Shown in pieces: positions 1 through 55,600 of a DNA stretch of 64,000 nucleotides. Source of the stretch: an uncultured Aquimarina sp. Lineage in GTDB: Bacteria > Bacteroidota > Bacteroidia > Flavobacteriales > Flavobacteriaceae. A model generated the notes under the pieces. The model was not told the DNA's origin and ran no database searches. It saw only the letters and a program-made list of their open reading frames with translations. The stretch is from positions 868,001-932,000 of the forward strand of contig CANLEM010000001.1 in assembly GCA_947489685.1 (NCBI GenBank). Reading direction: 5' to 3'. The position numbers and the translations under genes are program-made. The number at the start of each line of letters is the position of its first letter. Position 1 is the first letter of the stretch.

Positions 1-355
1 TCTTACTGGAGCAAATTTTGTAAATACTTGTATCGGATTAGAAATTGATGGTAATACAGCCACAGCTACTCGCGAAATTGACGGAGGTAAAGAAACATCT
101 ACTACAACGCTACCTTTGGTAGTAGGCGGACAAAAAGGTTTGGTTGAAGAGAGTGATCTTCGTATTCCGAACATGAGAGGTATCATGATGGCTCGTAAAA
201 AACCACTTACAGTGGTTGACCCTGTAGATGTAGCCCAAGAAACTAAAGCGGTACAATTTCAAAAACCAGCTCCAAAAGGAGATGTGAAGTTAGTATCCCC
301 AGACAACGTTCAGGAACTTATAGATTTATTACATAACGAAGCAAAAGCTATTTAA
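1..355 (+). CDS. etfB: Electron transfer flavoprotein beta subunit (5' truncated by window edge)
   Basis: About 117 C-terminal residues of EtfB are present; the frame is open from base 2 and the start lies upstream of the window. Seen: the ending typical of EtfB, with the segment IPNMRGIMMARKKPL, a short linker and a helical tail. EtfB pairs with EtfA to form a soluble AMP/FAD heterodimer that collects electrons from acyl-CoA dehydrogenases and passes them to ETF-quinone oxidoreductase. The stop is 11 bases before etfA, so the two are almost certainly one transcript. The function is well supported by the C-terminal sequence plus the neighbour; nothing can be said about the N-terminal half. 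Confidence 0.93.
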   Translation, partial: LTGANFVNTCIGLEIDGNTATATREIDGGKETSTTTLPLVVGGQKGLVEESDLRIPNMRGIMMARKKPLTVVDPVDVAQETKAVQFQKPAPKGDVKLVSPDNVQELIDLLHNEAKAI

Positions 356-38353: not shown

Positions 38354-38560
38354 CTCCCTAAAATTTTAATAATTGCGTGTAATTCTAATACTTAAATATT
38401 CCTAAAAATTAATATTCTTTTTCCCCCGAAATGATACATTATGTATCTAAATATTAACGATATAAAAATAACAATATTACTTGAGTTAGACCTACGGAAA
38501 AACCGCAATTTTTCAGTGTAAAACTATAAATTCGACAAAGCACTATAAAAGCCGATAAAA

Positions 38561-39817
38561 CTATATGTTAAAGGCTGCCTTTACGGCATCTACATGATCC
38601 AATTTCTCCCATGTAAACAATTCTACTTCTCGTTCTATTTTACCAGAATAAGGACTGTTAAAGACTTTGGTAACAGTTTTAGGTTCTTTACCCATGTGGC
38701 CATAAGCAGCGGTTTCCAAATATATAGGATTGCGCAATTTAAGACGTTGTTCTATCGCCGCTGGACGCATGTCAAAAATTTTGCTAACTTTTTCAGCGAT
38801 TTCACCATCTGTTAAGTTCAAATTGCTACTTCCATAGGTATCTACGAAAATTGAAGTAGGTTCAACAACTCCAATTGCATATGATACTTGCACCAATACT
38901 TCGCTAGCTACACCTGCGGCAACTAAGTTTTTGGCAATATGTCTAGAAGCATATGCGGCAGAACGATCCACCTTGCTAGGATCTTTTCCAGAAAAAGCTC
39001 CACCTCCATGTGCACCTTTACCTCCATACGTATCTACAATGATTTTTCTTCCTGTAAGACCAGTGTCTCCATGAGGACCCCCAATTACAAATTTGCCAGT
39101 TGGATTAATATGGTATGTTATTTTATCATTGAATAATTTTTGAACATATTCTGGTAATTGAGCAATTACTCTAGGTATCAAAATAGAAACAATGTCGTTT
39201 TTTATTTTGGTAAGCATTACTTCATCATTACTATCAAAATCATCATGTTGCGTAGATACCACAATAGCAACAATTCTTTGAGGAATATTATCATCGCTAT
39301 ACTCTATCGTAACCTGACTTTTAGAATCTGGACGTAAATAAGGAATTTCTGTTCCTTCTCGTCTCAACGCTGCCAGTTCCATCAAAATTTTATGAGAAAT
39401 ATCAAGAGCCAAAGGCATGTAATTTGCAGTTTCTTTAGAAGCATAACCAAACATCATTCCTTGATCTCCGGCACCTTGTTCCTCTTTAGTTTCTCTATCA
39501 ACACCTTGGTTAATGTCCTGCGATTGTTCATGAATCAAAGAGATTACACCACACGAATCTCCACTAAACTGATATGCTCCCTTGGTATACCCAATTTTAT
39601 TTATTACTTCTCGAGCAATCTGTTGTACGTCTAGATACGTTTGAGACTTTACTTCTCCGGCAAGAACTACTTGACCAGTAGTAACTAGTGTTTCACATGC
39701 TACTTTTGAGTCAGGGTCAAAAGCTAAAAAATTATCTAATAAAGCGTCACTTATTTGATCTGCTACTTTATCTGGATGTCCTTCAGATACACTTTCTGAA
39801 GTAAATAAATATGCCAT
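38561..39817 (-). CDS. metK: S-adenosylmethionine synthetase
   Basis: 418 residues. It makes SAM from methionine and ATP. Seen: the N-terminal [17 protein letters not shown], the catalytic loop region [12 protein letters not shown], the glycine-rich [20 protein letters not shown] and [19 protein letters not shown]. The family's usual length is about 384-420. The gene is read leftward with a roughly 145-base leader that contains the SAM-II-like element at 39885-39957 and a promoter at 39969-39996. SAM made here is used by EgtD, by CobA and by other methyltransferases. It closes the methionine cycle of the neighbouring operons. Confidence 0.97.
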
Positions 39818-39836
39818 TGTTTTTGTTTTATAGAGA

Positions 39837-39881
39837 CTAATAAGACGGGATTACAACACAAAGCTTTCGATGATTAGTCAT
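39837..39881 (-). other. Short upstream ORF in the metK leader
   Basis: A 14-codon frame starting ATG at 39881 encodes [14 protein letters not shown] and stops 19 bases before the metK start. It begins just past the 3' edge of the SAM-II-like element. No ribosome site is visible; coding is unproven. Confidence 0.2.
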
Positions 39882-39884
39882 TTA

Positions 39885-39957
39885 TCGAACTGCTTTAGCA
39901 TTTTTAACATTGAAAAACATAATGTTTCGGGTTGCAATCAGTCAAATCTATCCCTGA
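39885..39957 (-). promoter_or_regulatory. SAM-II-like riboswitch in the metK leader (long-loop type)
   Basis: On the minus strand the leader reads GATTTGACTGATTGCA (39948-39933), then ACCCG, then a 6-bp hairpin AACATT/AATGTT (39926-39921 with 39911-39906), then TTAAAAATGCTAAAG. The blocks GATTTGAC, TTGCA and GCTAAAG match the conserved core of SAM-II. The defining pseudoknot is present: GACTG (39943-39939) pairs with CAGTT (39892-39888) directly after GCTAAAG. P1 is short (GGG with CCC) and the inserted hairpin is atypical. Known SAM-II RNAs switch off methionine genes when SAM is abundant. Assignment is from pattern, not from a covariance model. Confidence 0.7.
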
Positions 39958-39968
39958 AAATATGTGGG

Positions 39969-39996
39969 CAAAGGTAAAAAAAATGATAATATGCAA
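39969..39996 (-). promoter_or_regulatory. metK promoter
   Basis: On the minus strand TTG (39996-39994), 17-base spacer, TACCTTTG (39976-39969), an exact match to TTG-N17-TAnnTTTG. It precedes the SAM-II-like element, so the element would be fully transcribed. Confidence 0.7.
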
Positions 39997-40112
39997 AAGT
40001 TTTTAACGTATCATTATTTTTTTGCTAGAGATGACCTTAATTATGTTATGGTTTTTTAGGACTAAGTAATTTTTTAATGAAACATGTTATGGTTTAAAAA
40101 TAATTACTAGTT

Positions 40113-40138
40113 TTGTCTTCAAGTTTCTTATACATTTT
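40113..40138 (+). promoter_or_regulatory. Possible promoter of the metX operon
   Basis: TTG (40113-40115), 15-base spacer, TACATTTT (40131-40138). The spacer is short and the last base differs from TAnnTTTG, but it lies just upstream of the SAM-I riboswitch as expected. The region 39997-40112 between the two promoters contains a 12-base direct repeat (ATGTTATGGTTT at 40043-40054 and 40084-40095). Confidence 0.35.
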
Positions 40139-40147
40139 AGTAAGTTA

Positions 40148-40290
40148 TTAAGAAAGGTGGAGGGAGTAGACCCTGTGAAACCTTAGCAACCCTTTATACG
40201 TAAAGAAGGTGCTAAATTCTATCTCGATTGATATTCGGGAAAAGATAACTCGATGTAATTACTATTCAGTAATTTTCATTCCCTTTCTTT
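40148..40290 (+). promoter_or_regulatory. SAM-I (S-box) riboswitch of the metX operon
   Basis: The diagnostic S-box core is present: AAGAAAGGTGGAGGGA, then CCTGTGAAACCTTAGCAACC and AAGGTGCTAAATTC. P1 closes as AAGAAAGG (40150-40157) with CCTTTCTT (40282-40289). S-box RNAs bind SAM and repress downstream methionine genes. A U-rich stretch follows P1, but a separate terminator hairpin is not evident. It lies 84 bases before the truncated metY start and controls metX, thrA, osmC-like and metZ. A second copy is at 55457. Confidence 0.93.
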
Positions 40291-40374
40291 TTAATTTTCT
40301 ATGTCCAATCGCAATATAATATGCGTTTGATGTATTTGAATTTTAGCAATTATTAAAATTTAAATTAGAAAATT

Positions 40375-40536
40375 ATGAGTACTCAAAAATTTACCGCAGA
40401 AGCTTTACATGCCGGTCATGATTTAAGAAAGAAGGCTACGGATTTATCTACTCGTCGTGCGATATCTTCCATTTTTAATTTGTTAGTATCAAGTGTAAGG
40501 GGAGTTTTTGCAACTGTTGATCAAACGGTAAAGTAA
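40375..40536 (+). pseudogene. Truncated metY start (53-codon ORF behind the SAM-I riboswitch)
   Basis: A 53-residue frame that begins MSTQKFTAEALHAGHD, matching the usual flavobacterial O-acetylhomoserine sulfhydrylase (MetY) N-terminus. The match stops at residue 16; no PLP-enzyme core follows, and no other frame restores it. The stop at 40534-40536 is 19 bases before metX. The place is where metY normally stands, directly after the S-box. The simplest reading is a remnant left by deletion of metY, with the metZ-type enzyme downstream taking over. Alternatively the short peptide may have been kept as a leader peptide. It is too short to be judged by codon use. Confidence 0.6.
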
Positions 40537-40555
40537 GTTTATAATATCTTTTTAT

Positions 40556-41530
40556 ATGCTTCAAAAAATAAACATCTCCAATTTTGCCACAGAAAAAGGT
40601 GGGTATGTAGATAAGGTTACTTTGACCTATGAGGTTTTTGGCCCTTCTTTGGGTCAGGCACCTATAGTTCTTGTTAATCATGCCCTAACAGGTAACTCTA
40701 CCGTATGTGGTGATAATGGGTGGTGGAATGGCATGATAGGAGAAGGCAGATGTATTGATACAGAGGTGTACTCGGTACTTTCTTTTAATATTCCGGGTAA
40801 TGGTTATGATGGTGTGGAGGGAAATTTGATTCAGGAATATGATGTATTTAATGCTCGTGACATTGCCGCTATTTTTCTAAAGGGATTAGAGCAGTTACGG
40901 ATTACGGAGCTATATGCAGTTATTGGTGGTTCTGTTGGGGGTGGAATTGCTTGGGAGTTAGCGGCTTTGAAACCTACATTAATTCAACATTTAATTCCTA
41001 TTGCTACCGATTGGAAATCTACCGATTGGTTAAAAGCAAATTGCTTAGTTCAAGAACAAATTTTATTGAACTCTACAAACCCGGTTCATGATGCCCGATT
41101 ACACGCTATGCTAATGTATAGAACTCCCGAATCCTTTAAACTAAAATTCAATAGAACATTTAACAAGGATGAAAATATGTTCAATATAGAGAGTTGGTTA
41201 TTTCATCACGGCAAAAAATTGAATGAGCGATTTACACTTTCTGCGTATAAAGAGCTCAATTATATCCTGGCAAATATTGATATTACCGAAGGTAGAGAGG
41301 GGAGATTCCCGGAAATAGCAGGCACTATACAATCCGAGATTCATATTATTAGTGTTAATTCGGATGTTTTTTTTACCGAAAATGAAGATAAAATTACATA
41401 TCAAGAACTTAAGAAAGTAAAACAGAATGTAACTCATCAAGTAATTGATTCTGTGCATGGACATGATGCTTTTTTAATAGAATTCGAGCAATTAAGCGAG
41501 TTGTTAAAGGAGGTTTTTAAAAGAAATTAA
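40556..41530 (+). CDS. metX: Homoserine O-acetyltransferase (MetX-type alpha/beta hydrolase)
   Basis: 324 residues, shorter than typical MetX (about 350-380). Seen: IVLVNHALTGNSTVCGDNGWW, LSFNIPGNGYDG, the nucleophile Ser126 in AVIGGSVGGGIAWELA and the C-terminal acid/His in HIISVNSDVFF and VHGHDAFL. It activates homoserine by acetylation (or succinylation; specificity is decided by a few residues and not read here). It is the first intact gene after the SAM-I riboswitch and is 12 bases before thrA. Confidence 0.92.
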   Translation: MLQKINISNFATEKGGYVDKVTLTYEVFGPSLGQAPIVLVNHALTGNSTVCGDNGWWNGMIGEGRCIDTEVYSVLSFNIPGNGYDGVEGNLIQEYDVFNARDIAAIFLKGLEQLRITELYAVIGGSVGGGIAWELAALKPTLIQHLIPIATDWKSTDWLKANCLVQEQILLNSTNPVHDARLHAMLMYRTPESFKLKFNRTFNKDENMFNIESWLFHHGKKLNERFTLSAYKELNYILANIDITEGREGRFPEIAGTIQSEIHIISVNSDVFFTENEDKITYQELKKVKQNVTHQVIDSVHGHDAFLIEFEQLSELLKEVFKRN

Positions 41531-55254: not shown

Positions 55255-55456
55255 AAAGAATAGCGTTAAATGATTAGAATGTATATTAAAAACGTGTAAT
55301 AGTTTTGCCTGTTACAAAATATATAAGTTTACAACGATTGAATTTAATTTATGTATATAAAAAAGCTAATAAACTTGCAAAACAAAAGGCTATGCCGTTT
55401 ATTTGTATACGAATTAACAGCCTAGCTGTTTTAGCTCATTACTTTATTTATAATGT

Positions 55457-55600
55457 TATCAAGAAAGGTGGAGGGATTAGACCCTATGAAACCTTAGCAA
55501 CCCTTTATTTGTTAAAGAAGGTGCTACATTCTATCCTGTATTTGGGAATAGATAACGAAGATGCATAGCTTGTCTGTGTTTTCCACTATTTTTCTTGATA
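55457..55600 (+). promoter_or_regulatory. SAM-I (S-box) riboswitch of the metH-metF operon
   Basis: Closing helix TATCAAGAAA (55457-55466) with TTTCTTGATA (55591-55600). The core GGTGGAGGGATTAGACC, TGAAACCTTAGCAACC and GAAGGTGCTACATTC matches the first S-box at 40148. It lies 124 bases before metH. After it a weak stem TTCCT/AGGAA (55614-55629) precedes TTTTTT (55635-55640), which may be the terminator of the expression platform. The remaining sequence of the 470-base gap 55255-55724 shows nothing else supported. Confidence 0.93.

Follow-up and report, generated by a model that had tools for sequence, protein, structure and literature searches.

A SAM-II long-loop riboswitch before metK in an uncultured Aquimarina, with a candidate anti-aptamer strand downstream

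The metK leader and its aptamer

We analysed a window of 64,000 nt from an uncultured Aquimarina sp. (Flavobacteriaceae), in which metK is preceded by a SAM-II long-loop aptamer (Table 1). The closest relative of the encoded MetK (92%) comes from a MAG named Bacteroidia bacterium, and the nearest named relatives are those of Flagellimonas flava (84%) and Euzebyella saccharophila (82%). The aptamer match ends 67 nt before metK, and the end of P2 lies 70 nt before the AUG in the window.

Table 1. Positions of features at the metK locus, of the SAM-I aptamers in the window, and of SAM-II aptamers that lie before other genes in relatives.
Feature	Position	Strand	Evidence
metK, methionine adenosyltransferase, 418 aa	39817-38561	-	TIGR01034, 505 bits (cut-off 309)
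Likely metK promoter: TTTG 39997-39994, 17 nt, TACCTTTG 39976-39969	39997-39969	-	exact TAnnTTTG
SAM-II long-loop aptamer (RF01726)	39961-39885	-	Infernal, 47.1 bits (cut-off 44)
P1: GGG 39954-39952 / CCC 39931-39929, closing GATTTGAC/GATTGCAAC	39954-39929	-	compensatory changes in relatives
GATTTGAC	39948-39941	-	exact string
P2 pseudoknot: GACTG 39943-39939 / CAGTT 39892-39888	39943-39888	-	small covariation
TTGCA	39937-39933	-	exact string
Inserted hairpin: AACATT 39926-39921 / AATGTT 39911-39906	39926-39906	-	weak alone, z -0.3
GCTAAAG	39899-39893	-	exact string
Second competing hairpin: CTAAAGC 39898-39892 / GCTTTG 39864-39859; TTCGAT 39889-39884 / ATCGAA 39871-39866	39898-39859	-	
Possible start-site helix: GCTTTGTGTTGT 39864-39853 with ACAAAAACAATGGC 39826-39813	39864-39813	-	duplex, -8.0 kcal/mol
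Anti-aptamer strand, pairing with 39956-39930 (5' half of aptamer)	39858-39831	-	duplex, -22.1 kcal/mol
Best anti-aptamer part: GTTGTAATC with GATTGCAAC	39857-39849 with 39939-39931	-	duplex
Divergent SAM-I aptamer (RF00162)	40142-40251	+	85.3 bits
Second SAM-I aptamer	55453-55558	+	84.9 bits
SAM-II long-loop aptamers not before metK	L263 1501-1561, L264 1498-1558, L265 1548-1607, L268 1474-1533, L261 1501-1559		69-76 bits

The RF01726 match has an E-value of 7.4e-6 in a search of the whole window (both strands) and of 5.2e-8 in a search of the 451 bases from 39700 to 40150. The remaining six matches in the shorter search (E up to 10) have E-values of 0.1 or worse and lie far under their own cut-offs. 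The classical SAM-II model (RF00521) is absent from these seven and from the whole-window matches. The initial annotation had proposed a SAM-II-type riboswitch of the long-loop variant before metK, and both the Infernal score over the RF01726 cut-off and the TIGR01034 gene downstream bear this out. The motifs that it had named were found on the minus strand exactly where it had placed them. Its 5' limit of 39957 has to be moved, as the match begins at 39961. Its statement that a long-loop variant occurs in Bacteroidota agrees with an excerpt of PMC2864571, which names 'SAM-II long loops, Bacteroidetes, marine, RF01726'.

The leader shares with that family the core GATTTGACTGATTGCAACC, an A-rich loop, GCTAAAGCAG, P1, a downstream metK and an origin in Bacteroidetes. 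We found no difference that would exclude it; the anti-aptamer strand described below lies outside the Rfam model. RF01726 matches (E<=0.001) were obtained in 283 of the 299 family genomes and passed the cut-off in 275, and the element is therefore an ordinary member of the known SAM-II long-loop family, a placement confirmed at the level of sequence. Within the genus, a match is present in 20 of 21 genomes (our own included) and passes the cut-off in 13; G310, a near-complete genome of this genus, is without a match. The score is low here compared with about 59-80 bits among the approximately 150 best family matches, presumably because of the loop insert and the weak P1.

For comparison we collected 260 loci, the window among them, of which 226 could be parsed. 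The 34 unparsed loci comprise 31 of 80 named metK loci (mostly from other Bacteroidota) and three further ones (L238, L241, L257). Three of the 226 leaders are without a metK start, and 210 have a start within 110 nt. Similarity filtering left 147 leaders at 0.85 and, on the downstream stretch, 102 at 0.7. Loci from family genomes consist of the 30 best hits and of 120 low-scoring genomes picked by hand. The first parse ended some leaders at an early CTAAA and was then refined; the counts for anti-aptamer duplexes, promoters and groups given here use the unrefined parse.

The helix P1 (GGG/CCC) is weak in the window. Among the 226 leaders it occurs as GAGG/CCTC (155), GTGG/CCAC (24) and AGGG/CCCT (19), which are compensatory changes. 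The pseudoknot that the initial annotation had put in the P2 register has both strands in place, and its covariation in relatives is slight: the longest paired run averages 3.57 bp, compared with 3.37 bp when strands are shuffled (128 distinct strand combinations; none of 2000 shuffles as high). The effect is small because the core hardly varies. The Rfam alignment of the match leaves P2 unscored.

The hairpin described earlier as inserted in the loop holds up as an idea, and less so in its exact form. Inserts of at least 16 nt fold strongly in relatives (mean fold z -3.21, with 88% under -1.5); they occur in 131 of 210 leaders, which is not a family frequency because the low-scoring genomes were hand-picked and insert-bearing leaders are over-represented. 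Loop inserts within the genus vary in sequence and length among species, yet tend to fold on themselves. The exact 6-bp hairpin is weak in the window, whose own insert folds no better than chance and stands at the weak end among relatives. In the minimum-energy fold of the whole leader another hairpin (GAAACA/UGUUUU) replaces it, and the centroid has neither. In these fold models, support for an inserted hairpin stems from the relatives and not from the window's own fold.

A promoter-like element stops just 5' of the aptamer match. In 217 of 226 leaders TAnnTTTG occurs no more than 45 nt upstream of the core, compared with a mean of 8.7 in mononucleotide shuffles, and we take this type of element to be the Bacteroidota -33/-7 promoter consensus. 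Its placement in relatives makes the 5' edge of P1 the very probable start of the metK transcript. An excerpt describing the classical SAM-II element of metA (PMC1273637) gives a similar arrangement, with one stem plus a pseudoknot and the promoter a few nucleotides before P1.

A downstream strand complementary to the aptamer

Between the aptamer and metK we identified a strand able to form a duplex with the aptamer's 5' half. The predicted duplex in the window (-22.1 kcal/mol) is better than that of shuffled strands (-13.6 kcal/mol, p 0.03), and the leader as a whole folds into it (z -2.63; 3 of 200 shuffles as good). Of the 226 leaders, 139 have such a duplex at p<=0.05, and the mean z is -2.28. 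Exact GTCAAATC is present in 70 of 226 downstream stretches, as against 0.55 in shuffles, and the anti-aptamer of other genera is often GTCAAATC with variable bases; CAAATC or GCAATC is found in 126 of 226 (13.6 in shuffles). The base adjoining the core pairs with its anti-aptamer partner in 69 of 90 cases (A-T 45, G-C 14, G-T 9, T-A 1), and whether it is A or G depends on whether the partner is T or C (Fisher p 4e-6). The second base before the core shows no such match with its partner (an aptamer T faces T in 7 of 10).

Conceivably, the aptamer works without this platform, and the downstream complementarity has arisen as a by-product, through composition or shared descent. Singly, 87 of 226 leaders miss p 0.05, and the coevolution statistic ignores descent. 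Against this stands a two-way swap test on 102 leaders, in which a leader's own downstream strand pairs 2.33 kcal/mol better than would follow from row and column means (z -9.4, none of 5000 permutations as good, at mutual similarity under 0.7 and with kinship ignored). The reversed strand, which has the same composition, is null (z 0.1), as are the metK codons (z 0.8) and the upstream DNA (z -0.8). The preference for native pairing persists when the set is cut to 67 leaders with mutual similarity below 0.65, and also among 102 leaders from the family alone, with none of 10000 permutations as good in either set. We regard the by-product explanation as very improbable.

The anti-aptamer is weak in Bacteroidales (assigned by record title), where 6 of 23 leaders reach p<=0.05 (mean z -1.27), compared with 112 of 167 in the family. 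In the 223 leaders that have a metK start, at least 45 nt separate CTAAA from it. A second competing hairpin, involving the 3' part of the aptamer, belongs to the minimum-energy fold of the leader in the window; the centroid has one pair fewer, and like strings were seen by eye in relatives. We also considered whether the P2 3' strand coevolves with the downstream strand and rejected this, as the swap test is null (z 0.3). The duplex test for the same strand is weak (8% of 210 leaders at p<=0.05), and CT[TC]TAG is enriched (26 of 147 leaders vs 5.3).

The aptamer is routine, and what merits further attention is the anti-aptamer platform. It goes beyond the initial annotation, which mentioned neither this strand nor the divergent SAM-I aptamer. 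Among the papers searched on the family, its platform and its place in flavobacteria we found no description of an anti-aptamer platform; the excerpt of PMC2864571 refers to its Additional file 1 for details of SAM-II representatives, and that file may hold one. Through the anti-aptamer, the output step of these SAM-II switches would become open to test with only a few mutants.

Proposed switching and the output step

With the aptamer, the promoter motif and a coevolving anti-aptamer shown at the level of sequence, we propose that the metK leader acts as a SAM-II long-loop riboswitch in which SAM, by holding the aptamer against strand exchange with the anti-aptamer, lowers metK expression, most likely through translation initiation (probability about 0.68). 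Transcription would begin at the P1 edge, and the nascent aptamer would be able to adopt P1 and the P2 pseudoknot and to bind SAM. The anti-aptamer, a complement of the aptamer's 5' half, would emerge some 30 nt further on. Without SAM it would invade and open the aptamer; the resulting long nested duplex would stop 14 nt short of the AUG, and the A-rich start region would remain accessible (metK ON). When SAM is bound, the aptamer would withstand invasion and the downstream strand would stay free (metK OFF), and we infer that SAM in this way represses metK. The inserted hairpin may be a spacer that fits inside both folds. The aptamer and anti-aptamer folds are mutually exclusive, as is usual in the logic of an expression platform. 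The last step is most likely reduced translation initiation, and in some relatives the start site may be covered by a hairpin.

Terminator-like sites (a hairpin with a U-run) number zero in 38400-40700, where 1.1 are expected by chance, and an intrinsic terminator as the output was rejected on this ground. No Shine-Dalgarno-like string was seen by eye before metK, and Flavobacteriaceae rely little on such signals. In both respects the leader differs from excerpted accounts of classical SAM-II elements, where many members have putative intrinsic terminators (PMC1273637) and Sinorhizobium metA needs a Shine-Dalgarno sequence (PMC9373788).

The fold calculations ignored pseudoknots and ligand, and as a stand-in for SAM the aptamer was barred from pairing. 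Under this constraint the predicted unpaired fraction of the region -45..-20 rises from 0.33 to 0.54, and is not lower in 187 of 210 leaders. At the start codon the change is slight, from 0.586 to 0.553 (a decrease in 131 of 210 leaders), and native downstream strands have no advantage over shuffled ones in concealing the start (p 0.13). That the freed strand hides the start codon is thus unsupported as a family-wide rule, and we keep the idea for a subset.

This subset comprises 17 of 102 leaders in which pairing with the start site is at least 3 kcal/mol better than expected (a count given without a chance expectation); therefore SAM would have a repressing sense there. The clearest helices are those of L003, L004, L007, L009, L017, L034 and L059, and in the first four the freed strand can build a helix of 9-12 pairs beside the AUG. 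Over the 102 leaders the start-site helix has a coevolution z of -4.3. This result depends on the choice of stretch, because the variable-length version alone reached -3.8 to -4.5 (four spans). With a fixed stretch of 30 or 40 nt, three spans at the start codon give z -2.0, -1.1 and -2.4; 0..20 gives -0.4 and 20..45 gives -1.9. In the window the possible start-site helix is not the minimum-energy fold, and for the stretch behind the aptamer no structure beyond what its composition would give is predicted (z +0.95). By these models, start-site hiding is unsupported outside the subset, the window included.

The predicted release of -45..-20 could also be read in the opposite sense, with SAM raising metK expression by freeing the sequence ahead of the start. 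A leader that has no Shine-Dalgarno signal should benefit from an open region there. Such activation would be contrary to feedback logic and sits poorly with the helices that can form beside the AUG in the four leaders named above, and we judge it improbable.

The main rival to reduced translation initiation keeps the same aptamer and anti-aptamer and makes the output transcriptional: SAM would free a C-rich, G-poor strand on which Rho loads, and transcription would stop. The block on the aptamer is predicted to expose -45..-20 instead of hiding the start, terminator-like sites are missing from the interval searched above, and the downstream strand has C 0.232 and G 0.117, compared with 0.198 and 0.141 in 270 background leaders. 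The excess of C is modest, the background set itself contains metK leaders, and the pyrimidine richness is partly due to complementarity with the purine-rich aptamer. We think Rho loading unlikely, while giving it more weight than activation by SAM. Returning to the anti-aptamer exchange itself, we tentatively entertain, with some doubt, that the SAM-II long-loop switches of Flavobacteriaceae have a platform of their own. In these the coevolving anti-aptamer would strip the aptamer's whole 5' half, and the output would be set by the release of some 30 nt of C-rich strand ahead of the start, with neither start hiding nor a terminator.

SAM-I neighbours and other genes behind SAM-II aptamers

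Two SAM-I (S box, RF00162) aptamers are present in the window. SAM-I has by family the same ligand as SAM-II, but another fold and model, and the nearer copy lies on the other strand, pointing away from metK. Of 20 other loci in the genus, 17 have a SAM-I aptamer on the opposite strand, divergent and within 1.5 kb of SAM-II. Among the 299 family genomes, 283 have SAM-II and 234 have SAM-I riboswitches. Both types stand side by side in this genome and are common in the family, unlike the picture in an excerpt of a 2007 survey (PMC2258182), which gives no single species with both.

The first ORF behind the divergent SAM-I aptamer (40375-40536, plus strand) is a 53-codon remnant with a metY-like start (MSTQKFTAEALHAGHD) that then departs. 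At its place, 16 of the 17 genus loci with a divergent SAM-I have a long ORF that is metY-like by eye. Our own genome has zero matches over the TIGR01326 (metY) cut-off. The remnant is followed by an ORF whose best NCBIfam matches name MetX, at scores under their cut-offs (177 bits against 500), and then by a bifunctional aspartate kinase/homoserine dehydrogenase. The second SAM-I aptamer precedes two ORFs (333 and 897 aa) that by eye resemble a split methionine synthase.

Seven genomes have two SAM-II copies (G004, G052, G081, G239, G281, G290 and G298; completeness 66 to 93%). All seven are without SAM-I, three being listed as lacking it and four missing among the matches (Fisher p 2e-5).

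Some SAM-II copies do not precede metK. The downstream gene is metY at L267 (by TIGR01326) and at L027 (by eye); other copies have queF-II and DUF6580 downstream. The gene queF-II follows the aptamer at L268 and L263 (over the TIGR03139 cut-off) and at L264 and L265 (by eye). Literature on SAM-II with queF returned preQ1 riboswitch papers only, as judged by their titles. A DUF6580 membrane protein is encoded behind queF-II at L263 (by Pfam) and at L268 (by eye), and at L261 the aptamer precedes DUF6580 alone.
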